64,000 bases of DNA from Gammaproteobacteria bacterium (lineage in GTDB: Bacteria; Pseudomonadota; Gammaproteobacteria; Burkholderiales; Burkholderiaceae_C): contig JAHJWB010000017.1 of NCBI GenBank assembly GCA_018828125.1, positions 186,001 through 250,000 of the forward strand, written 5' to 3'. Below the pieces are notes generated by a model, which searched no databases, was not told where the DNA came from, and worked only from the letters and a program-made list of their open reading frames with translations. This document shows positions 29,165 through 41,073 of this stretch, one piece after another. The position numbers and the translations under genes are program-made. The stretch's first letter is position 1. Every line of letters starts with the position of its first letter.

Positions 29165-30283
29165 TCACCCCAGCCGGATGGGCTTTGCGTACCCGGTCAT
29201 CTCCAGGTAGCCGCGCCCCACCGTGCCGCCACCCGCGTCGCGCAGGTCACTCAGGCCTTCCCAGTAGATGGCTCCCGTGGAGCCCTGGCTGTCCAGCTCT
29301 TGCGCGTCCAGAACCGCGTGCACGCTGAAACTGCCCGCGGGCGTTTCCACCCGCCACTGCACGGGGTAGCGGGCGCCACTTTGCGGGCTGGTCCAGAACC
29401 GCTCGGGGGTAAAAGCCACAGCGCTCGCGTCAAAAATCTGCGCGGCCTGACCCGGCGCACGGAACGACCCGCCGGCCCACAGCGCAGACCCGTCGGCCCT
29501 GCGCAGCCGAAACGCCGTCAGCGCGCTGCCATCGTTCAGGTTCATGCCAATCCAGTCCCAGCCCAGTGCCTCGGGGTGCAGCAGGGCCTCGCTCCACTCG
29601 TGGTCCATCCACGCACGGCCACTGCCAGGGGTGACCGCCAGGCGCTTGCCACCTACCGTCAGCGCGCCAGTCACGGCCAGTTGCGGCTGGCTGTAGTAGT
29701 AACTGGCCTGCGTTGCATCCGGCCCTTTGCGCGACAGGCCTTGATGGCCTTGCAGCAGCACCGGCTGGGTGCTGTCGAACTGCAGGTCCAGCGCAAACTC
29801 GCCGTCACTGATGTGGGCCGTGTAGCGGCTTCCACCCCGCTCGCCCGGGCTGCCTGCCGTGTCGTTGCGCACCAGCGTCCAGTCCTGCAGGCGGATGCGC
29901 GTGTCTGCCTCGCTCGCCTGCGCCACGCCAAAGCCCGCACGCGCAATGCGCTGGTCGTGCAGCAGGCGCTGGCCCTGCACATCGGTCACAGCGGCATGCG
30001 CAAACAGCAGCTGCTTGGCTGCAAAGGCCGACTGCATGCCCTGCGTGGCATCCACCCGCGAGCGAAAGAAGGTCACCTGAAACCCCCAGGGCTGGCCCCC
30101 GGCCTGCACATGACCAGTGATATACCACCACTCGGTGCGCAGATCGGGGTGGCTGCCATGGTCCCGCGGAAAGGTCATTGCGCGGGCGGGCAGGGCGTGT
30201 GCCGCACCGGGCCACAGGGAAAACAACCCGGCGGCTTGCAGGCTGGACAACATCAGCCACTGGCGGCGTGTGGTGCTGTGCAT
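29165..30283 (-). CDS. AttH/CrtC-like secreted lipocalin-fold protein
   Basis: A 372-residue protein of the carotenoid 1,2-hydratase/AttH family. The N terminus TTRRQWLMLSSLQAAGLF resembles a twin-arginine signal, followed by an AHA cut site. Family motifs are TEWWYITGHV, AWMDHEWS and GWDWIGMNLNDGS. Despite family naming, a role in carotenoid synthesis is unlikely: no other such gene is present, and members of this type usually accompany FtsX-type ABC systems, handling lipids at the outer membrane. Such a system lies 7 kb away (37139-41077) on the same strand. The start is 9 bases after the upstream gene. Confidence 0.85.
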   Translation of the reverse strand: MHSTTRRQWLMLSSLQAAGLFSLWPGAAHALPARAMTFPRDHGSHPDLRTEWWYITGHVQAGGQPWGFQVTFFRSRVDATQGMQSAFAAKQLLFAHAAVTDVQGQRLLHDQRIARAGFGVAQASEADTRIRLQDWTLVRNDTAGSPGERGGSRYTAHISDGEFALDLQFDSTQPVLLQGHQGLSRKGPDATQASYYYSQPQLAVTGALTVGGKRLAVTPGSGRAWMDHEWSEALLHPEALGWDWIGMNLNDGSALTAFRLRRADGSALWAGGSFRAPGQAAQIFDASAVAFTPERFWTSPQSGARYPVQWRVETPAGSFSVHAVLDAQELDSQGSTGAIYWEGLSDLRDAGGGTVGRGYLEMTGYAKPIRLG

Positions 30284-30292
30284 GGTGGGCGC

Positions 30293-31348
30293 TCAGCCGA
30301 TCAAGGCATCCACTTTCTGCTGCGCTGCCGAGCAATCGCCAAAACACTGGTCTACCCATTGCGTATTGAAGTACGTGGGCAGATACCGTTCACCTGCATC
30401 ACACAGCAGCGACAGAATAGAGCCGCGTTCCCCGCGTTCCCGCATTTCGCTGGCCAGCGTCAACATGGCGACAAAGTTGGTGCCGGTCGACGGCCCCACT
30501 CGCCGCCCCAGCAGCTGCGACAGCGCACGCATCGCAGCGACGGACTCCACATCGGGCACATCGATCATGCGGTCCACCAGCGTGCGGATAAAACTCGGTT
30601 CCACACGCGGGCGCCCGATGCCTTCAATGCGCGAACCCGGTGCCGTTAACGTGGCATCGCCTGTGCGGTGGTAGGCGCTGAACACCGAACCCGCCGGGTC
30701 GGCCACACACACCTCGGTGACGTGCCGCTGGTAGCGCACATAGCGGCCAATGGTGGCGCTGGTGCCGCCCGTGCCCGCACCCACCACAATCCAGCGCGGC
30801 ACGGGGTGCGGCTCGCGCGCCATCTGCGTGAACATGCTCTCGGCAATGTTGTTGTTGCCCCGCCAGTCGGTGGCGCGCTCGGCATAGGTGAACTGGTCCA
30901 TGTAATGGCCACCGGGCTCCTCGGCAATGGTGCGGGCGGCATCATAGACCGCGCCCGCGCTGTCCACAAAGTGGCACCGCCCGCCATGGAACTCGATCTG
31001 CGCGATCTTCTCGGGCGACGTGGTGCGCGGCATCACCGCCACAAAAGGCAGCCCCAGCAGCCGTGCAAAGTAAGCCTCGCTCACCGCCGTGGAGCCGCTG
31101 GACGACTCGACGATGGTCGAGCCCTCACGCACCCAGCCGTTGCACAGCGCATACAGAAACAACGACCGCGCCAGGCGGTGCTTCAGGCTGCCCGTGGGGT
31201 GGGTGGATTCGTCCTTGAGGTACAGGTCAATGCCATGCGCGGCGAACGTGGGCAGACGCAAGGGGATCAGGTGCGTGTCGGCGCTGCGCTGGTAGTCGGC
31301 TTCGATGCGGGCGATGGCTTCGTGGAGCCAGGGGGAGGAGAGGGTCAT
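30293..31348 (-). CDS. PLP-dependent cysteine synthase-like enzyme (Cds1-type desulfhydrase candidate)
   Basis: A 351-residue fold-type II PLP enzyme. The Schiff-base Lys is in [14 protein letters not shown], the substrate loop is [15 protein letters not shown], and the phosphate-binding loop is [14 protein letters not shown]. These motifs fit the cysteine synthase superfamily, in particular the branch with HPTGSLKHR that includes cysteine desulfhydrase Cds1 of actinobacteria. It may release sulfide from cysteine or make cysteine; sequence alone does not tell. It is upstream of, and probably co-transcribed with, the AttH-like gene. Confidence 0.85.
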
Positions 31349-31435: not shown

Positions 31436-33427
31436 TTAAGAACTTTCTACCTTGTCGGTCTCGCCGCCCACATCCCGTCGGGTCAACTCATGCAACAACG
31501 CGTACGGTTGAAGTGGCTTTCCGAGATGCCGATCAAATCCGGCGGCCAACGCGCGATCCCGATCCTGCGGCCGAGCGAATGCCGTGAGCGCTATAGCGCG
31601 TGTTCTTGGCCGGTTTTCTTGCGACTCCATCTCTCGCACCTTTGCGATCAAGTCGTAGCCATCCTTGCCTGGCAGGCCGATGTCGCTCACCAGAAGTTCG
31701 GGCCACGCATGCTCAAACTGCGCAATTGCGGCCTGATAACTATTCGCGACCCGCACCGTCGCTCCTTCGTCGGTCAGCACAATGCTCAGCATCTCGCTGG
31801 TGTCTGCGTTGTCCTCCACGACCAGGATATCTTTGCCGTCAAGCAGCCTCTTTTCGCCAGACAACGGTAAGGGCATCGCGTCGCTGGTTGTCGCGCCGGG
31901 GTCCTCATAAGACACCAGCAGTTTGGCGGTCATGGTAGTGCCGTGGCCTAGACCTTTGCTGTACGCACAAACCGATCCTCCATGAAGTTCTACCAGGTGT
32001 TTGACAATTGAGAGACCGAGCCCCAGGCCGCCATGTCCTCGGTTCCCGGGCGCACCACTCTGCGTGAAGCGCTCAAAAATGTGCGGCACGAATTCAGGCT
32101 CAATGCCATGTCCTTGGTCAGTGACTGCAAGCGTCAACGCGTCACCCTCGCGTATGACGTCAAGGCGCACCGTCGCACCGTTTTCTGAAAACTTGATGGC
32201 GTTGGTCACCAGGTTCCATACGATTTGCTGAAACCGGGTGACATCGAGCCAGGCGGCCTCATCAACGCCGGTGGAATGGACTTCCAGGTTGATGTTCTTC
32301 GCCAGGGCTACGTCGTTCAGAGCGCCCAGTGAGATGCGGGTCAATTCGACCGGGTCAGCCCATTCGCGATGCAAACGCAGCTTGCCCGACGCAATGCGCG
32401 AGACATCCAGGATGTCCGAGATGATGCGCCCCTGCGCCTTGACTCCGCGCTCGATGGCATCGATTCCTCGCGCCAGGAAATCTGGACCGGTACTGGGGCG
32501 CTTGAGCATGTGCACCCAGCCGGTGATCAGCGTGAGTGGAGTGCGCAACTCATGGGACAGTACCGCCACAAAATCGTCTTTGGTGCGGCTGTGACGCTCT
32601 GCCAGCACGCGCGCCGATTGTTCGCGTTCCAGCAGGTCTTCACGGCGTCTTTCAAAGTCGATGCGTTCTGAAAGATCGGTGGCGATTCCGATTCGCACAC
32701 CGGGTTCGACGTGGTCCGACATGCTCCAGTCAAGCAGCATTTCCTGGCCGTCGCCCCGTATCAGCGGAAACTTCCCCTGCCAGTTCGCATCCGCGTGGCC
32801 ATTCATGCCTTCGTGCACAAAATCTCTCCACGGCTCCGGTGCGAGCGATGTGACGGCGAGGCCGATGAGTTCCTGGCGGTTGCGCTGCAGCAATATCTCT
32901 GCCGCAGGATTCACATCCGCAAAGTGGCCTTCAGCGTCGATCAGCATCATGGCAACAGGCGCCCGGTCGTAAATCGCACGAAAGCGCGCTCCGCTACGGC
33001 GCAACTCCTCCTCAGCAGTGCGCGCGCGTATCAGCGCTTGTAACGTAGCAACCATCAGTGGCGGCTCAGCAGGGTGCACCAAGTAAGCGTCAGACCCTGC
33101 ATTCAGACCCTCTACCTTGTGCTCGCTCTGGATATACGTTGCAGACAGGTGGATGATAGGTGTGAGTTGCGTGCGTGGATCGGCGCGCAGAATGCGGCAA
33201 ACTTCAAACCCATCCATGTCCGGCAGATTCACGTCAAGCACGATGGCCGACACGTCGTCCCTCGCCGCTTCGATAGCATCCGAGCCCGTGCCCACTTCCA
33301 AGGTCCGGAAGCCCGCCGCGCGCAGAACCCGCGCGGTGGAATAGCAGGTCACAGGATTGTCATCCACCACCAGGACCCTGTGCTGGTCACGGTGAATGCT
33401 GGACGAGATGATGGCTGAGGGGGCCAT
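31436..33427 (-). CDS. hybrid sensor kinase: REC-PAS-HisKA-HATPase-REC
   Basis: A 663-residue soluble protein. REC1 (about 17-135) has Asp65 in IVLDVNLPDMDG, but the usual lysine is replaced by His118 (YLVHPAEP). A PAS domain follows (about 145-255), then HisKA with His292 in LSHELRTPL and HATPase_c (N box WNLVTNAIKFS, G box GGLGLGLSIVK). REC2 (about 532-650) has Asp582 in VSDIGLPGKDG and Lys637. No transmembrane segment is seen, so signals come from the cytosol. It is the last gene of the stressosome operon, 3 bases after the preceding kinase, and is a likely output device. Confidence 0.93.
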   Translation of the reverse strand: MAPSAIISSSIHRDQHRVLVVDDNPVTCYSTARVLRAAGFRTLEVGTGSDAIEAARDDVSAIVLDVNLPDMDGFEVCRILRADPRTQLTPIIHLSATYIQSEHKVEGLNAGSDAYLVHPAEPPLMVATLQALIRARTAEEELRRSGARFRAIYDRAPVAMMLIDAEGHFADVNPAAEILLQRNRQELIGLAVTSLAPEPWRDFVHEGMNGHADANWQGKFPLIRGDGQEMLLDWSMSDHVEPGVRIGIATDLSERIDFERRREDLLEREQSARVLAERHSRTKDDFVAVLSHELRTPLTLITGWVHMLKRPSTGPDFLARGIDAIERGVKAQGRIISDILDVSRIASGKLRLHREWADPVELTRISLGALNDVALAKNINLEVHSTGVDEAAWLDVTRFQQIVWNLVTNAIKFSENGATVRLDVIREGDALTLAVTDQGHGIEPEFVPHIFERFTQSGAPGNRGHGGLGLGLSIVKHLVELHGGSVCAYSKGLGHGTTMTAKLLVSYEDPGATTSDAMPLPLSGEKRLLDGKDILVVEDNADTSEMLSIVLTDEGATVRVANSYQAAIAQFEHAWPELLVSDIGLPGKDGYDLIAKVREMESQENRPRTRAIALTAFARPQDRDRALAAGFDRHLGKPLQPYALLHELTRRDVGGETDKVESS

Positions 33428-33430
33428 GAG

Positions 33431-34288
33431 TCACTCCACTACGGGTTCTTGAGCGGCAGTCAAATGGGCCGGAACAATGACCGAAAACACCGAACCCTTG
33501 CCGACCGTACTTTGCACATCGATGGTGCCGCCGAGTAAGGTGGCCAATTGCTTGGAAAGCGCTAGACCAAGCCCTGTGCCGCGAAGCCGTTTCTGGATCG
33601 GGGCATCTACCTGGGAGAAATCGTTGAAGAGCGCGGGCAGATGCTCGGGCGCGATACCGATACCCGTGTCCGCCACAGAGAAACGCACAAGCGCACCAGC
33701 TTCAGGTCGTGCCGAAACCCGCACTTCGCCCTGCGCGGTAAATTTGAGCGCGTTGGAAATGAAGTTGCGCAAAATTTGAGAGAGCTTGTGGTCATCGGTG
33801 TACAAACGCGACAAGCCGACGGGCTCTTCAAAAACCAGGCTCAGTTCGTCGTTTTCCAGGATGGGCTTGAACATCCCTCGCAGTGCGGCGAACAGGTCCA
33901 GCATCTCGAACCATTCCGGTGAGACATCCACCCGGCCCGCCTCGATTTTTGCCAGATCCAGGAGATCATCAACCATCTTGGAAAACTCTTCAGACGTACT
34001 TTGAATGAAGCGTACCTGCCGCTCTTGTTCGGTTGTCAGTGGGCCGTCCACACGATCGAGCAACAACCGCGCGATGCTCAGGGTAGCGCCGATGGGGGAC
34101 CGAAACTCATGGCTCATGTAGGACAAAAATCGGCTCTTGAGCTGGGTTGCATGTTTGAGTGCCTCGGCTTGCTCGTCAAGCTCGGCGTAAAGAGCCACGA
34201 CGCCGCGATTCGTCTCTTCCAGCTCAGCCCGAAGTGCCTGAATCTCTGCGTCTCGCTCCTCGAGCATTGTCTTTAGATCAGCATTCAA
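33431..34288 (-). CDS. cytosolic histidine kinase of the stressosome operon
   Basis: A 285-residue protein without membrane segments or a sensory domain. Residues about 5-48 form a coiled coil. HisKA has His60 in YMSHEFRSPIG; HATPase_c has the N box NFISNALKFT, DTGIGI and GTGLGLALSK. With no sensor domain of its own it may be driven by binding a partner, and the linked RsbT-like and fusion proteins are candidates. Its start overlaps the end of the upstream kinase-phosphatase gene by 11 bases. Confidence 0.92.
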   Translation of the reverse strand: MNADLKTMLEERDAEIQALRAELEETNRGVVALYAELDEQAEALKHATQLKSRFLSYMSHEFRSPIGATLSIARLLLDRVDGPLTTEQERQVRFIQSTSEEFSKMVDDLLDLAKIEAGRVDVSPEWFEMLDLFAALRGMFKPILENDELSLVFEEPVGLSRLYTDDHKLSQILRNFISNALKFTAQGEVRVSARPEAGALVRFSVADTGIGIAPEHLPALFNDFSQVDAPIQKRLRGTGLGLALSKQLATLLGGTIDVQSTVGKGSVFSVIVPAHLTAAQEPVVE

Positions 34289-35294
34289 GGGCGTCTCCTT
34301 GTTTCACTACCAGCACCGTTGCGTCGTCACGCCCACGTCTCTGTTGCCACAGCAAGGCTGCAGCTATCAGCGTGGGGTCGCGCTGCAGAAGGAGAATCAC
34401 CTCGTCGGCTTTCCACCGCGATGCAATACCGTCGCTGTATACCAGCGCGATAGCATGATCGGGTAACTCTACCTTGGCTACCTCAGTCCTGCGCACCTGG
34501 ACTCCCACGGTGCCGTGTTGAGTGATCATGGAGCGGTCAAAAACGCCTGAAATGATGCGCCCCATGACATTGCCGGCGCCGGTGTATTGCAGCTGTGCTG
34601 AAGGGTCCAGCTGCATGGCAAATAGCGCAGCACCACGCGTGGTCTGCAATTCCCGATGTGTGTTTTGCACCTGTGCCTCAAGCGGGGAAAAAGGGGCTGA
34701 GGCAAATACGTCCAGTGCTGCATCTGCGGCAACGGCCGCCTGCGGCCCATGCCCCAGACCGTCGGCCACTACGGCTGCAAGGCGGCCGTTGTCCAGTGCC
34801 ACGGCCCACCCATCCCCACATTCCGTTTCACCCGGCGCGGCAATGCTTACGGCGCCCCACTGCCGCGGGGCAGGCGCAGACTTGCCAGCCGAGCGAACTC
34901 GGATCAAGCAGGCCGTGCCACGCGGCGATGTGTGAATATCGAAGTCGCTAGCCAAACGGCGGATTGCCCCCAGGCCTGTGCCAGGGGACCCCCCGCCCGT
35001 TGACACTCCGTCTTCAAATGAGCGCTGCACATCTACGATCCCCGGACCCCTGTCCAGTGCGATCAGCTCTACCTCCTGCACATCCGCCCGGGCAGAGATC
35101 CAAAGCTCCCCCTGTTGTGCATGGCGCACAAGGTTGGTGCCCAACTCTGTGGCGATCAGTGACAGTCGCCCTGCATCCACCTCACTCCAGGAAAAATTTT
35201 CCACGGCATTTGCGCAGAAGCGTCTTGCTTCGCCAACGCAGCTGGCGTCCGACATAGCGAACGTTCGGTGCGTCCAACCGCGGACTACTTCCAC
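34278..35294 (-). CDS. RsbT-like ATPase fused to an RsbX/SpoIIE-type PP2C phosphatase
   Basis: A 338-residue two-domain protein. Residues about 10-135 are an anti-sigma-type HATPase_c (N box ELGTNLVRHA, DRGPGI at 81, G box GTGLGAIRRL). Residues about 145-330 are a SpoIIE/RsbX-like PP2C domain with VVADGLGHGPQAA, YSDGI and GRDDATVLVV, which supply the metal-binding aspartates. In stressosome systems RsbX dephosphorylates RsbS and RsbR to reset the complex; the attached kinase-like domain may bind the same targets. It overlaps its upstream neighbour by 10 bases and its downstream one by 11. The downstream ATG giving MSDASC is an alternative start. Confidence 0.9.
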   Translation of the reverse strand: MEVVRGWTHRTFAMSDASCVGEARRFCANAVENFSWSEVDAGRLSLIATELGTNLVRHAQQGELWISARADVQEVELIALDRGPGIVDVQRSFEDGVSTGGGSPGTGLGAIRRLASDFDIHTSPRGTACLIRVRSAGKSAPAPRQWGAVSIAAPGETECGDGWAVALDNGRLAAVVADGLGHGPQAAVAADAALDVFASAPFSPLEAQVQNTHRELQTTRGAALFAMQLDPSAQLQYTGAGNVMGRIISGVFDRSMITQHGTVGVQVRRTEVAKVELPDHAIALVYSDGIASRWKADEVILLLQRDPTLIAAALLWQQRRGRDDATVLVVKQGDALEC

Positions 35295-35689
35295 TTGGTG
35301 ATTCTCACGCGTGTGCCTTGGCCCGGTGCAGAGTCGACCTCGAAATTGCTCACCAAACGCTTGCTGCCAGGAAGTCCCAAACCCATGCCTCGCCCAGACG
35401 TCCAGCCGTCTGTCATGGCCAAGCTCATGTCGGCGATGCCGGGGCCTTCGTCCTCAAAATGCAGCGTGAGGCCCTGCTTGCCGCCCAGTTCAACAATCTC
35501 CCAGCGCATTCGACCCCCACCGCCGTGGATGAGTGTGTTGCGCGAGAGCTCGCTCGCAGCAGTGATCATCTTGGTCTGCTCGACCAGCGAAAACTTCAGT
35601 AGTTGGCATAGCGAGCGCACTGTTTGCCGGCTGGCGACAATGTGCTGCTCGTTTTCCAAAGGGAGGGTGCCGGTGCGCTCAACGGACAT
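35285..35689 (-). CDS. RsbT-like serine/threonine kinase (switch protein)
   Basis: A 134-residue HATPase_c protein of the anti-sigma factor kinase class. The N box is ASELSRNTLIHG, the G1 box EDEGPGI, and the lid and G2 region is GRGMGLGLPGSKRL. In Bacillus subtilis, RsbT phosphorylates RsbS and RsbR, leaves the stressosome and activates a downstream partner. No RsbU-like partner gene was found in this window, so the target here may be one of the linked kinases. It overlaps the RsbS-like gene by 11 bases. Confidence 0.92.
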   Translation of the reverse strand: MSVERTGTLPLENEQHIVASRQTVRSLCQLLKFSLVEQTKMITAASELSRNTLIHGGGGRMRWEIVELGGKQGLTLHFEDEGPGIADMSLAMTDGWTSGRGMGLGLPGSKRLVSNFEVDSAPGQGTRVRITKWK

Positions 35690-36053
35690 GGCTGCTCGCC
35701 TCGCGAGCGCGTTGGAGTAGGTCTAACCCTCGCTCAACATTGAGTGCCGTCCGTACGCCCTCCAGCGACAGACCCAGTTCCACCAAAGTGATCGCCACCG
35801 CAGGCTGCATGCCCACCACTACCGTGGTGGCAGAAAGAATGCGAGCGATTCCGGAGATGCTGGCCAGCATTCTCCCGACAAAGGAATCGACAATCTCGAG
35901 CGCGGAAATGTCGATCATCACCCCACTCGCGCCGGTCTTGGCGATGCGGTCTGCCAAGTCGTCTTGCAGCGCCAGGGCTGTCTGGTCCTGCATGTCTACC
36001 TGAATGGTGACCAGAAGGGTCTGCCCCATCCGCAATATCGGTATGCGTTCCAT
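35679..36053 (-). CDS. RsbS-like STAS-domain scaffold protein
   Basis: A 124-residue single STAS domain. The segment DISALEIVDSFVGRML matches the RsbS phosphorylation site: Ser57 here corresponds to Ser59 of Bacillus subtilis RsbS. The length fits RsbS (about 120). RsbS-like proteins co-assemble with RsbR-like ones into the stressosome core and hold the RsbT-like kinase until both are phosphorylated. It lies 12 bases after the RsbR-like gene. Confidence 0.93.
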   Translation of the reverse strand: MERIPILRMGQTLLVTIQVDMQDQTALALQDDLADRIAKTGASGVMIDISALEIVDSFVGRMLASISGIARILSATTVVVGMQPAVAITLVELGLSLEGVRTALNVERGLDLLQRAREASSHVR

Positions 36054-36065
36054 ATGCGGTACCGA

Positions 36066-36917
36066 TCAAGCCGCTTGGCGCGTGATGCGCCAGCCAGTGC
36101 GTTGCAGCGCCAGCGACAACGCGTCGGCCAGCGAAGCTTTGGTGCTGATGCCCTGCAAATCAATGCCCAGATGCACGATGGTCTGAGCGATCTGTGGGCG
36201 TATGCCACTGATGATGCAGTCCGCCCCCATGAGTCGAATGGCTGTCACGGTCTTGAGCAAATGCTGTGCAACCAGTGTGTCCACAGTAGGGACCCCTGTG
36301 ATATCGATTATGGCAAGCTCTGATCCGGTTTCCACGATCTTTTGTAGCAGTGTCTCCATCACGATTTGCGTGCGGTTGCTGTCCAGCGTGCCGATCATGG
36401 GTACGGCCAATACACCTTCCCACAGTTTCACCACGGGCGTGGACAACTCGAGCAACTCTTCCTGCTGGCGGCTGATGATTTCTTCTCGTGCGAGCTGGAA
36501 CGTGGTGGCCGTGTACTGAGCCATTCCATCCACTAGTTTGGTCAAGCTCCAGAACGCTGCGGCGAGTTGCTCGCTGCTGTCCCCCCTCAGCCTTTTTTGC
36601 AGTGCTGACAGCAATGGTTTCTTCAGAGCCAGCACGAAAACACTTGTTTCGCCGGCGGTCAGGCCTTGAGCTGCGCGCGAACGCGACAAAGAAGATAAGA
36701 CATCCTGAAGCGGCGCCCACTTGGAGTCCGTCACAGCTTCAAGGCTAGCTCCGTCCTTTAGGCCCTGCGCCAGCGACGCAACGATTTGGGCGGCTTCCGC
36801 CGGGGCTGACTTCGACAAGCTCGCAGTGGCCTTGCCCTCATTCAGCCATTCCTGGATAAAAGCTTCGCTCTGGTCGCCTGTGAGCGCGTCAAGGATCTGA
36901 TGGTTCAAGCTGGTCAT
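36066..36917 (-). CDS. RsbR-like stressosome sensor protein
   Basis: A 283-residue protein with a helical N-terminal RsbRD-type domain (about 1-155) and a C-terminal STAS domain (about 165-280). Both phosphorylatable threonines known from RsbR are present: Thr214 in ITGVPTVDTLVAQHL (Thr171 equivalent) and Thr246 in GIRPQIAQTIVHLGID (Thr205 equivalent). The N-terminal domain is the likely signal receiver, and the sequence does not show a cofactor. The ATG ending at 36917 is preferred to the TTG at 36953, though neither has a clear ribosome-binding site. It is the first gene of a six-gene operon. Confidence 0.93.
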   Translation of the reverse strand: MTSLNHQILDALTGDQSEAFIQEWLNEGKATASLSKSAPAEAAQIVASLAQGLKDGASLEAVTDSKWAPLQDVLSSLSRSRAAQGLTAGETSVFVLALKKPLLSALQKRLRGDSSEQLAAAFWSLTKLVDGMAQYTATTFQLAREEIISRQQEELLELSTPVVKLWEGVLAVPMIGTLDSNRTQIVMETLLQKIVETGSELAIIDITGVPTVDTLVAQHLLKTVTAIRLMGADCIISGIRPQIAQTIVHLGIDLQGISTKASLADALSLALQRTGWRITRQAA

Positions 36918-37138: not shown

Positions 37139-39826
37139 CTACCAATCCTCCTTCACAGCCATCACCGCATCACGCCCCGCTGCCGCCCGCCCCGCCAGCC
37201 AGGCGGTCACCGTGCCTGACATCACAACCGCCACACACAGCGCAAGCAGCCTCCCACCAGGTACGTTCAGGTCCATCGTCCAGTGAAAACTCTGCGGATT
37301 GACCACGTGCACCAGCACTACCGACACGGCCAGCCCTAGCAGGACACCCGCCGCGGCGCCCACGGCCGTCCACGCAGCGCCTTCGCCTGCCACCACGGCC
37401 AAAATCTGGCGCCGCGTGAGGCCCAGGTGGGCGAGCAGGCCGAACTCTTTGCGGCGCGCCAATACCTGCGCGCTGAAGCTGGCGGCCACGCCGAACAGGC
37501 CGATGCCGATGGCGACGGCCTGCAGCCAGTAGGTGACGGCAAAGCTGCGGTCGAAGATGCGCAGCGAGCGTTCGCGGATGGCGCCGGAGGAGGCGAATTC
37601 CACAAGCGCGTTATCGATGCTGCTGCCGCCACCGCTGACACCTTTCGATTCGCTGCCTGATCGGCCCGCCTGTGCAGCCGCCAGTGCGCGTATCGATGCC
37701 TGCAGTGCGCCGATGTCTGCGCCCTCGCTGGGCCACAGCGCCAGGTCGCTGGTGCGGGCGTCGTCGGTCAGGCGCAGCCACACGGCGCGGTCCATCACCA
37801 CGGCGCCGGACTGGCGGGCGTAGTCGCGCCAAATGCCTGCTATGTAAAAGATAGCTGGCGGCGTTTGTCCATCAAGCGCTAGAGGGCTAAAAGACTTAGA
37901 AAGTGCGGGCCACTCCATGCCGGGGCGCAGGTTGTACAGGTCTACCACCGCCTCGCTGATGTACACGCCGGTGCGGCCTGCGGGCACGGGCAGCGCGTTG
38001 CCCACAAGGGGCAGCGCCTGCGCCGGGTCGTCGCCCAGGGGGCGGCTCAGCACCATCAGGGCGGGCAGGGTGGGGGACAGTTGCAGCGGGCTGGCGCGCA
38101 GGGCCTGCACCCGGTCCAGGCCCGGCAGTTGGCCAACGGCTTCGGCAAAACCAGCAGGCAGCAATGCGGCGTCGGTGCCGCCCGCGTTGAGGGCAGATCG
38201 CACATACAGGGGGGATGGCAGCACCGCGTCCAGCCACTGGGTGACGGATCCGCGAAAGCTCGACACCATTACCGTCAACGCCACCGCCAGACTGAGGCTT
38301 GCCACCAAGCCGCCCACCGCAATGGCCGCGCTGCCGCGCATGCGGCGCGCGCGCTCCAGCGCCAGCAGTGGCAGAGCATGGCGTGCCGCCAGCGGTTGCA
38401 GCCATGCCAGCAGCCTGGCCATGGCCCACGGCAGCAAGGCGATGCCGCCCACCAGCAGCAGGCCGATGGCGACATAGGCCGCCAGGGGAATGCCCCACAC
38501 CGGTGGCACCAGGGTCAGCAGTGCACCGCACACCACCAGTGCGATGCCCACCATGCCGTTGTCGGCCTGGCTGGCAGCGGTGCCCAGGCCCTTCAAGGTC
38601 TGCGCGGGGGGCAGGGTCTGTGCGGCACGTGCGGGCCACCACCCGCCCACCAGAGCTGCGGCCACACCGAGTGCGCCGTACACCAGCGCCGCCGGTGCGC
38701 TCCACTGCAACGCGGGCTGTACCCCTGCAAAGTAGCCACCGCCCAGGTCACCCCCCAGTAACTGCAACGCGGTGGCCGCCAAGGCAGTGCCCAGCGCTAC
38801 GCCCAATGTGCTGCCCAGCAGGCCGAGCGCCGCCGATTCGGCCAGCACCAGGGCCAGCCGCTGCCGTGGCGTGGCGCCCAGCACTGCCAGCAGCGCAAAC
38901 TGCGGCCCGCGCTGCGCCACGCTGAGCGCGAGCACCGAGAACACCAAAAACGCACCCGTGAACAGCGCCACCAGCGCCAGCACCGTCAGGTTCACCCGGT
39001 AGGCGCGCGACAGGTTGCTGATGCGCTGCGCTGCGTCGCCTGGCAGCGCCAGCACCCCATTGGCGGGCCAGCCGGGTTGTGCGCGCAAGGTTTGCTCCCA
39101 CGCAGTGCGGTCGATGCCGGGCTGCAGTTGCACGTCGACCCCACTGAGCTGGCCCGCGCGGCCAAACAGGTCTTGCGCGGCGCCAATGTCCATCACCGCC
39201 AGCGGTGCGCCACCCGCCGTCACGGTGCCCGCCACCCGCACCGAAATCGGCGCCTGCAGGCCCACCTGCAGCGTCAGCTGCGGCAACTGCTGCGGTTGGA
39301 TGGGGGCCGCGGTCGACAGGCCCAGCGCCTGCAGCGCTGCGGTGTTGAGAAACACCGTGGCCGGTGCGAACAGGGCGAAGCGGTCTGCCGTGTCCCAGGG
39401 CCGGGGCATCAGGGCGGGGGCCATGGTGGGCAGCAGCAATGCATCGGCTCCCAGCACGCGCAGGCTGGTGCGCTGGGGCGGCGAGGCAACGGTGGGCGGT
39501 GCGCCAGCGGTGCTGTTGGCTGGCTGCGCCACTGCCGCCAACTCCAGCAAGGGGCTGGCGTGCTTCACCTGCGGGTCGGTTGCCAGGCGCTCGTACAGCG
39601 CCTCGGGCAGATGCCCTTGCATGGCGCGCACCTCCAGGTCGGGCTGCCCGTTGACGGCGCGCACCGCCTGCGAGAACTCGTCCAGCGCCGACGCGTTGAT
39701 CACATGCACCGCAAACGCCAGCGCCACCCCCAGCATCACGGCCGCCACCGCCGCCGCACTGCGCCAGGGGTGGTGGCGCAGGTCTTGCCAGGAGAAGGTG
39801 CGAAGCAGCGCGAGCATGGCCTGCAT
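37139..39826 (-). CDS. FtsX-like ABC transporter permease (MacB/LolC type, large)
   Basis: An 895-residue membrane protein with two FtsX domains: an N-terminal helix (about 24-46), a large periplasmic domain, three helices (about 285-385), further helices near 430-520, a second periplasmic domain and three C-terminal helices (about 760-880). This layout fits large permeases that move lipids or lipoproteins without crossing the membrane. Its ATPase is most likely 40427-41077, with which hsp20 now intervenes. A 20-residue segment (about residues 645-665, SPLALDGQTPPAIFY) is encoded by a copy of the dispersed repeat. Confidence 0.88.
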   Translation of the reverse strand: MQAMLALLRTFSWQDLRHHPWRSAAAVAAVMLGVALAFAVHVINASALDEFSQAVRAVNGQPDLEVRAMQGHLPEALYERLATDPQVKHASPLLELAAVAQPANSTAGAPPTVASPPQRTSLRVLGADALLLPTMAPALMPRPWDTADRFALFAPATVFLNTAALQALGLSTAAPIQPQQLPQLTLQVGLQAPISVRVAGTVTAGGAPLAVMDIGAAQDLFGRAGQLSGVDVQLQPGIDRTAWEQTLRAQPGWPANGVLALPGDAAQRISNLSRAYRVNLTVLALVALFTGAFLVFSVLALSVAQRGPQFALLAVLGATPRQRLALVLAESAALGLLGSTLGVALGTALAATALQLLGGDLGGGYFAGVQPALQWSAPAALVYGALGVAAALVGGWWPARAAQTLPPAQTLKGLGTAASQADNGMVGIALVVCGALLTLVPPVWGIPLAAYVAIGLLLVGGIALLPWAMARLLAWLQPLAARHALPLLALERARRMRGSAAIAVGGLVASLSLAVALTVMVSSFRGSVTQWLDAVLPSPLYVRSALNAGGTDAALLPAGFAEAVGQLPGLDRVQALRASPLQLSPTLPALMVLSRPLGDDPAQALPLVGNALPVPAGRTGVYISEAVVDLYNLRPGMEWPALSKSFSPLALDGQTPPAIFYIAGIWRDYARQSGAVVMDRAVWLRLTDDARTSDLALWPSEGADIGALQASIRALAAAQAGRSGSESKGVSGGGSSIDNALVEFASSGAIRERSLRIFDRSFAVTYWLQAVAIGIGLFGVAASFSAQVLARRKEFGLLAHLGLTRRQILAVVAGEGAAWTAVGAAAGVLLGLAVSVVLVHVVNPQSFHWTMDLNVPGGRLLALCVAVVMSGTVTAWLAGRAAAGRDAVMAVKEDW
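37846..37892. repeat. dispersed palindromic repeat inside the FtsX-like permease gene
   Basis: AAAAGATAGCTGGCGGCGTTTG, five bases, then CAAGCGCTAGAGGGC. The core stem GCGTTTG/CAAGCGC has one mismatch. The copy is read through in frame on the minus strand as SPLALDGQTPPAIFY. Its orientation and frame relative to the gene match the copies in mutL and the DUF455 gene. The listed span is over 20 bases and is described by its parts: GATAGCTG, GCGTTTG and CAAGCGCTAGAGGGC. Confidence 0.65.
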
Positions 39827-39887
39827 TGTGGCCGCAGGTGCGTGGCGCTCGGTGTTTGAGGCAGATCAACCTTGCATCGCGGCCCCC

Positions 39888-39916
39888 TTGAACGGGAGCG
39901 GGACCGTTCTTATCTT
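39888..39916 (+). promoter_or_regulatory. promoter of hsp20
   Basis: TTGAAC (39888-39893) and TATCTT (39911-39916) are 17 bases apart, a good vegetative promoter. The -35 is embedded in CCCCCTTGAA, which also resembles the sigma-32 -35 box (CCCTTGAA), but no CCCCAT-type -10 follows at the expected distance. Transcription would start near 39923, about 50 bases before the hsp20 start. Confidence 0.5.
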
Positions 39917-39974
39917 TGATTCACGAGCCTGCTTGGGCCCGGTTGTTCAACCTCTTATTTATCGGAGCATGATC

Positions 39975-40403
39975 ATGAACACTCTCGTATCGCGCGGCAG
40001 TCTGTTTGATGACTTCTTCAAGGACATTGCGCCAGGCTTTTATGTGCGCCCGCTGCATGGCGACAACCTGCCCACGCCCAGCCAGATCAAGGTGGATGTG
40101 AAGGAAACCGAGGGCGGCTACACGGTGCAGGCCGAGGTGCCGGGTGTGGCCAAGGAGGACATCCATGTTTCGCTGGAAGGCAATGTGGTCAGTCTGCGCG
40201 CCGAGGTCCGCCAGCACGACGAAAAGCATGAGGGCGAGAAGCGGCTGCGCAGCGAGCGCTACTACGGTGCCGTGGCCCGCAGCTTTCAGCTGCCTGTCGA
40301 TGTGGACGCGGCGCAGGCCAAAGCCAAATACGACAACGGGGTGCTGACGCTGAACCTGCCCAAGAAGGTGAACAAGGCGGCTCAGCGGTTGAACATCGAA
40401 TGA
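39975..40403 (+). CDS. Hsp20/alpha-crystallin small heat-shock protein
   Basis: A 142-residue ATP-independent holdase chaperone. The alpha-crystallin domain (about 38-130) has VQAEVPGVAKEDIHVSLEG and the closing A-x-x-x-NGVLTLNLPK motif; the C terminus is short and lacks a clear I-x-I tail. CGGAG 7 bases upstream selects the ATG at 39975; the ATG at 39969 is too close. The gene is opposite in direction to both flanking ABC genes and sits between an ATPase gene and its probable permease gene. Confidence 0.93.
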   Translation: MNTLVSRGSLFDDFFKDIAPGFYVRPLHGDNLPTPSQIKVDVKETEGGYTVQAEVPGVAKEDIHVSLEGNVVSLRAEVRQHDEKHEGEKRLRSERYYGAVARSFQLPVDVDAAQAKAKYDNGVLTLNLPKKVNKAAQRLNIE

Positions 40404-40426
40404 AATACCGCGAAAGCTGAGCGCCG

Positions 40427-41073
<647 letters not shown>

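Follow-up and report, generated by a model that had tools for sequence, protein, structure and literature searches.

A stressosome operon that ends in histidine kinases

We analysed a stretch of 64,000 nucleotides (the window) from contig JAHJWB010000017.1 of the Gammaproteobacteria bacterium assembly GCA_018828125.1. At 31436-36917, the minus strand of the window carries six genes, which encode RsbR-, RsbS- and RsbT-like proteins, an ATPase-PP2C fusion, a short soluble histidine kinase (hereafter the first kinase) and a hybrid kinase (Table 1). From RsbR to the hybrid kinase, the coordinates of the open reading frames (ORFs) give a 12-base gap, overlaps of 11, 10 and 11 bases and a 3-base gap. 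Note that the start codons GTG (fusion) and TTG (first kinase) are mechanical choices and unproved. The ORFs, the Pfam domains and the alignment columns bear out the original prediction, made from the letters of this DNA, in the position and spacing of the six genes and in the intactness of Thr214, Thr246 and Ser57; its reading of the genes as an operon with an RsbR-RsbS-RsbT core is upheld as well. The H-boxes of both kinases and the REC motifs are present. A consensus scan for promoters and terminators was uninformative, since it found one promoter-like site against a shuffle mean of 1.5 and two terminator-like sites against a mean of 4.8.

Table 1. Features of the stressosome operon, followed by features on other contigs of the same genome
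Feature	Position	Strand	Evidence
RsbR-like sensor/scaffold: N-terminal RsbRD_N helical domain, linker helix, STAS with Thr214 and Thr246	36066..36917	-	Pfam RsbRD_N and STAS
RsbS-like scaffold: STAS domain with Ser57	35679..36053	-	Pfam STAS; B. subtilis RsbS 6jhk, E 4e-32; Ser in 45/46 loci
RsbT-like GHKL switch kinase; N, G1 and G2 boxes intact	35285..35689	-	Pfam HATPase_c; T clade in tree; motif columns
PP2C feedback phosphatase, RsbX-like; an RsbT/RsbW-like ATPase domain is added at the N-terminus	34278..35294	-	Pfam HATPase_c_2 and SpoIIE; PDB 3zt9, 3w40
Soluble histidine kinase (first kinase): a short stretch at the N-terminus, then the stressosome-specific linker motif, HisKA and HATPase_c; putative target of RsbT	33431..34288	-	Pfam; linker; trees
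Linker motif stretch IQALRAELEETNRGVVALYAELDEQAEALKHATQ, proposed RsbT docking/activation segment	34142..34243	-	Profile match at contig 220142-220243
Hybrid kinase REC-PAS-HisKA-HATPase_c-REC, proposed next relay step	31436..33427	-	Pfam; REC-first second kinase in 40/46 module loci
Second partner-switching set on contig C15 (STAS, SpoIIE, RsbW-like), MFS transporter gene between	L196 599-1516, 5690-7792, 10561-11169	-, -, +	
NarL/LuxR-type regulator beside CHASE3-HisKA_3 kinase and lone REC	L215 8297-11016 (contig C1 about 410300-413000)		

The gene order recurs while its surroundings change

Homologues of the fusion were searched at E 1e-20 and those of RsbT at E 1e-12. Counting the window's own genome each time, the fusion has homologues in 27 of 250 family genomes and in 12 of 369 genomes of a class sample, and RsbT has matches in 35 of 398 genomes of a phylum sample. 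The genomes listed in the fusion search include two of the same genus, one with the module and one without it. We then compared 64 loci: the window, 60 fetched loci (all 26 other family matches, 8 of the 11 other class matches and 26 of the 32 phylum matches not yet taken) and three from another search. The order RsbR-RsbS-RsbT-(ATPase-PP2C)-kinase, on one strand, is present in 46 of them, which is more than chance would give, and in 40 of these 46 the first kinase is followed by a second kinase beginning with REC. Of the 18 other loci, seven (L108-L112, L139, L140) have on that strand nothing of the module but RsbR, RsbS and a homologue of the fusion. Seven more (L127-L130, L134-L136) combine RsbR-RsbS-RsbT-PP2C with different outputs, for the most part kinases that lack the linker motif described below. 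L137 and L138 have STAS-STAS-RsbT-PP2C and no kinase, and in L132 and L133 RsbR was not found.

At E 1e-15, the FtsX, CrtC-lipocalin and PALP genes that flank the window operon have no match beside the module in the other loci, and the flanking ABC ATPase has only 30-34% matches, in three of them. Since the genes that flank the operon in the window were not found beside the module elsewhere, the six genes look like the unit.

The core is an RsbRST-X module with a modified RsbX

Because the domains, the PDB matches and the conserved sites agree, we assign the core of the window operon, on sequence grounds, to the RsbRST-X stressosomes. RsbR joins a sensor domain to a STAS domain with two Thr, RsbS is a single STAS domain with its Ser, RsbT has the N and G boxes and is encoded beside RsbS, and the RsbX-like protein has the PP2C Asp residues. 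Both RsbR Thr are kept in 46/46 loci with the same core order, and the RsbS Ser in all but one, which has Thr. RsbR matches the cryo-EM chain 7o0i of the Vibrio vulnificus stressosome, and a structural model aligns to the Listeria stressosome 7b0u; RsbT had no PDB sequence match at E 0.001, with matches to SpoIIAB that were weak only. The conserved heme-binding His of the Vibrio-type globin RsbR was not found in the N-domain slice of the window RsbR, which has no His at all (His6 precedes the slice), or in the 46-row alignment, where no column has His in more than 14 rows.

By its domains, the fusion is the RsbX of this module with an extra ATPase domain. The original prediction had described it as a kinase-phosphatase fusion and missed the RsbX identity, which is indicated by the Pfam pair HATPase_c_2 and SpoIIE and by PDB matches to a SpoIIE-type phosphatase (3zt9) and to RsbX itself (3w40). 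Its five PP2C Asp positions are kept in 46/46 loci. The N-terminal HATPase_c_2 domain (E 1e-13) means that this is not a single-domain RsbX; the N, G1 and G2 boxes of that domain are present in the window, and the N-box E and N and the G1 D and G are kept in 54/54 rows. The seven loci with fusion, RsbR and RsbS are three-gene units: neither a separate RsbT nor a kinase accompanies them on the same strand in the stretch that was fetched, and in them the fusion may double as switch kinase and phosphatase.

The original prediction also held that no sigma-B, RsbU, RsbV or RsbW lies in the window. For sigma-B the claim extends to the whole genome, in which the five SigBFG matches all fall under the cut-off (best TIGR02980, 127 bits vs 234). 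Of the others, none was seen in the window, and RsbU_N (PF08673) had no match genome-wide, the first kinase included, while the control rang in B. subtilis. STAS was placed at eight sites in the genome, two within the window, and SpoIIE at ten, one within the window; these genome-wide profile searches placed no further STAS or SpoIIE gene there. What the claim missed is a separate partner-switching set on contig C15 (L196, 1-14000), consisting of a STAS protein, a 701-residue SpoIIE phosphatase and an RsbW-like ATPase (HATPase_c_2). It lies away from the window and has no visible link to the window stressosome.

A conserved linker motif joins two architectures of the first kinase

The window's first kinase has about 50 residues before HisKA, in which Pfam recognises no sensor domain, STAS or RsbU_N. 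Among the 46 loci, this kinase occurs in two forms: unfused, with a short stretch before linker and HisKA (26 loci: window, L081-L099, L113-L118), or with an N-terminal RsbT-like domain (20 loci: L037-L039, L100-L107, L119-L126, L131). Common to both is a near-invariant motif before HisKA, TN(R/Q/K)GV(V/L)ALY(A/S)EL, whose invariant positions include T, N, G, A, L, Y and E. It is present in 42 of the 46 loci, in 26/26 unfused and 16/20 fused kinases. Across the unfused kinases, the motif is as conserved as the H-box region, with a mean column identity of 0.889 against 0.891; the values are 0.757 for the ATPase domain and 0.51 for the stretch before the motif. When the 267 windows of 18 residues are ranked there, that of the motif comes 24th, after catalytic-box windows. 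Of the 16 fused rows, 15 could be aligned by the script, and in these the best window overlaps the motif.

The motif was searched with a linker model (A1) of 34 columns and 16 rows, all stressosome-linked, so the model was built from such loci. Its matches lie in 25 of the 250 family genomes and in 17 of the 398 phylum genomes (the two samples overlap), one copy each, in or beside stressosome genes, and at E 0.001 it has no match away from stressosome loci in either sample. In a relaxed control at E 10 over 329 genomes, 13 genomes had matches of 47.7-73.1 bits, all at known places, and the next best match scored 18.6 bits. Fisher tests gave 2e-32 and 1e-20; since the genomes are related, we rely on the counts instead. 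The kinase linker also resembled the RsbR linker by eye, but a common motif was dropped when hhalign gave it a probability of 0.4%.

Two trees relate the fused and unfused forms. The ATPase-domain tree holds 130 of 133 domains in 122 columns, which are few for that number of rows; three short matches, two of them kinase-fused, were dropped. A 100/97 branch has the RsbX-fused domains on one side and RsbT and the kinase-fused domains on the other. On the RsbT side, the 18 kinase-fused domains that could be placed, out of 20, all fall in one clade (96/92), and their N-box E and N are kept in 18/18 rows. The kinase-core tree holds 60 cores, with 8 of 29 hybrid cores as outgroup; the fused kinase of L131 was too short and was left out. 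Here the 26 unfused kinases form one clade (99/96) within a clade of 40 rows (100/100) whose other 14 members are fused, and five fused kinases (L039, L105, L106, L119, L122) lie outside it. Because the unfused clade is nested within fused kinases, the plain reading is that the unfused kinase of the window lineage would descend from an RsbT-fused kinase by one domain loss. In L119 and L122, the kinase core that follows the RsbT domain and the motif is a different one, of HDFNN type, so the motif travels with the RsbT domain.

An AlphaFold2 model of the RsbT-linker-kinase fusion of L037, built from 2 sequences (pLDDT 65.8), has one helix, 159-246, running from behind the RsbT domain via the motif into HisKA. 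As a guide to domain placement we found this model too weak.

Free RsbT as the probable regulator of the first kinase

In B. subtilis, RsbT departs from the stressosome and then targets RsbU at its helical linker (PMC12143880). For the window, we consider it probable that an RsbRST-X stressosome has a phosphorelay output in which free RsbT acts in trans on the linker of the first kinase. RsbR and RsbS would be the scaffold that holds RsbT. When the N-domain of RsbR senses a signal, RsbT would phosphorylate RsbS and RsbR and then leave, as is known for Bacillus. The free RsbT would bind the N-terminal helix and the linker motif of the first kinase, encoded two genes on, and by ordering or reorienting the dimeric helix would switch the kinase on or off, as with the RsbU linker. 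Since the first kinase has no receiver of its own in the window lineage, its phosphate would most likely go to one of the REC domains in the hybrid kinase next to it, and the hybrid kinase in turn would drive a response regulator encoded elsewhere. Finally, by the example of RsbX, the fusion would strip the phosphates from RsbR and RsbS and reset the complex.

That RsbT steers one of the linked kinases had been proposed in the original prediction. Gene order, fusions, linker and trees give this proposal comparative support and point at the first kinase as the probable target. Several observations weigh against such control. In V. vulnificus, Heinz 2022 (PMC9237108) report no positive result for binding of VvRsbT to the downstream protein D1. 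The loci were picked by homology to window genes, and 46 of 64 is thus not the yield of a random sample. The nesting of the unfused kinases depends on outgroup rooting over long branches, and the tool warned of long-branch joins. Four of the 20 fused kinases (L039, L105, L106, L131) lack the motif, so the coupling of RsbT domain and kinase does not need it. The fused operons also retain a separate RsbT, which makes the fused domain an extra paralogue and not a plain replacement. In addition, the window-type RsbT has no sign of having adopted features of the fused domain: three columns differ between the RsbT of the two types, and one of these is shared with the fused domain.

The ATPase domain of the fusion, and not RsbT, could be the partner of the kinase; the fusion would then be reset phosphatase and kinase regulator at once, and RsbT would only drive the phosphorylation cycle. 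The full conservation of the N-box and G1 residues of this domain would fit, as would the fact that its gene immediately precedes that of the kinase and overlaps it by 11 bases. However, the kinase-fused ATPase domains group with RsbT in the tree, not with the domain of the fusion, and the seven three-gene units keep the fusion homologue with RsbR and RsbS where a separate RsbT and a same-strand kinase are absent, which fits a role at the STAS scaffold. We think this arrangement unlikely. The kinase could also be recruited to the stressosome through RsbR or RsbS, or be phosphorylated on Ser/Thr by RsbT, instead of being bound at its linker by free RsbT. In the fused relatives the kinase does include an RsbT-like domain, with its N-box residues in every row, that could dock on the STAS scaffold; the window kinase, however, has no such domain and no recognised STAS or RsbU_N part in its short N-terminal stretch, and the invariant positions of the motif exceed what a phosphosite needs, so we rate both variants as quite improbable. 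Least of all do we expect the kinases to form a two-component system of their own, one that is expressed together with the stressosome but does not answer to RsbT: the undetected RsbT-D1 interaction in Vibrio and the fact that, to our knowledge, no biochemical link is described for this family would suit it, but the order is kept in 46 of 64 loci while the flanks change, RsbT and kinase genes are fused in 20 loci, and the first kinase has no recognised sensor domain.

Beyond control of the first kinase by free RsbT, a broader idea is held more tentatively, with doubt slightly outweighing belief. The linker TN(R/Q)GV(V/L)ALYAEL and the RsbT domain may constitute a transferable input cassette for histidine kinases, through whose linker the kinase would be set without any RsbU_N domain, either in trans by RsbT released from the stressosome or in cis by a fused RsbT paralogue. 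The window lineage would have lost the fused domain and kept the linker nearly frozen, and the ordinary RsbT would have become the diffusible regulator. If true, the cassette would connect a Ser/Thr partner switch directly to a His phosphorelay.

Relation to known stressosomes

RsbRST modules in bacteria were reportedly described by Pane-Farre in 2005. The window shares with B. subtilis and Listeria homologues of RsbR, RsbS, RsbT and RsbX, and the phosphorylation sites are the same; unlike in their sigma-B operon, the putative output in the window is kinases, in a genome that has no RsbU_N and no sigma-B match above the family cut-off. With the RsbRSTX operon of V. vulnificus (PMC9237108; PMC4976288) it shares the order rsbR-rsbS-rsbT-rsbX, the lack of sigB and two-component proteins (D1-D2 in V. 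vulnificus) directly downstream, but there the sensor of RsbR is a heme globin and RsbX consists of one PP2C domain. RSTX modules without SigB are described across phyla, some with HisKA/REC outputs, and with a single-domain RsbX (PMC9237108). A SigB-free stressosome with two-component output is thus already published (Heinz 2022), and the window locus fits it; as such modules linked to kinases are on record, the window arrangement is less surprising than the original prediction rated it.

RsbU_N is present in some of the downstream proteins considered by Heinz 2022, but not in the majority (PMC9237108). RsbU_N kinases in stressosome operons have been proposed to be controlled through their linkers (PMC12143880). 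Such RsbT targets, which include stressosome-linked histidine kinases and Moorella MtG (PMC12143880), share with the window kinase the proposed site of RsbT action, a dimeric linker of helices in front of the catalytic domain; unlike them, the window kinase has no RsbU_N and a different conserved linker, and it has relatives with an RsbT-like domain fused in front. What differs here from the described systems is the ATPase-RsbX fusion, the kinase without RsbU_N and the putative RsbT-linker relation. In a literature search, the string VVALYAEL returned no papers; no paper on the RsbT-linker relation was found either, a weak negative because subscription papers lay mostly outside the search. For the question of how stressosomes signal without sigma-B, where Heinz 2022 found RsbU_N absent from most of the downstream proteins considered and had no positive result for RsbT-D1 binding (PMC9237108), this family supplies a specific kinase, a specific short segment in it and cis and trans architectures that occur in nature. 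These make direct control of a histidine kinase by RsbT testable by point mutants.

A candidate target and neighbouring genes

At E 1e-20, a NarL/LuxR-type regulator of 210 residues follows the module in L081 and L088 only, among the 64 loci. The window genome encodes, on contig C1, a regulator 80% identical to it, which is a candidate for the final target of the relay as a lead only. This regulator lies divergently beside a CHASE3-HisKA_3 kinase, and it may therefore have a partner of its own.

The stretches of the window at 29165-31348 and 37139-41071 flank the operon; FtsX permease and ABC ATPase genes lie on one side of it, and genes for a CrtC/lipocalin-like protein and a PALP enzyme on the opposite side. 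ABC and lipocalin genes of this kind are often adjacent, so the stressosome operon may be an insertion. A small heat-shock gene, Hsp20, lies on the opposite strand at 39981-40400 (+), between the ABC ATPase and FtsX permease genes upstream of the operon.

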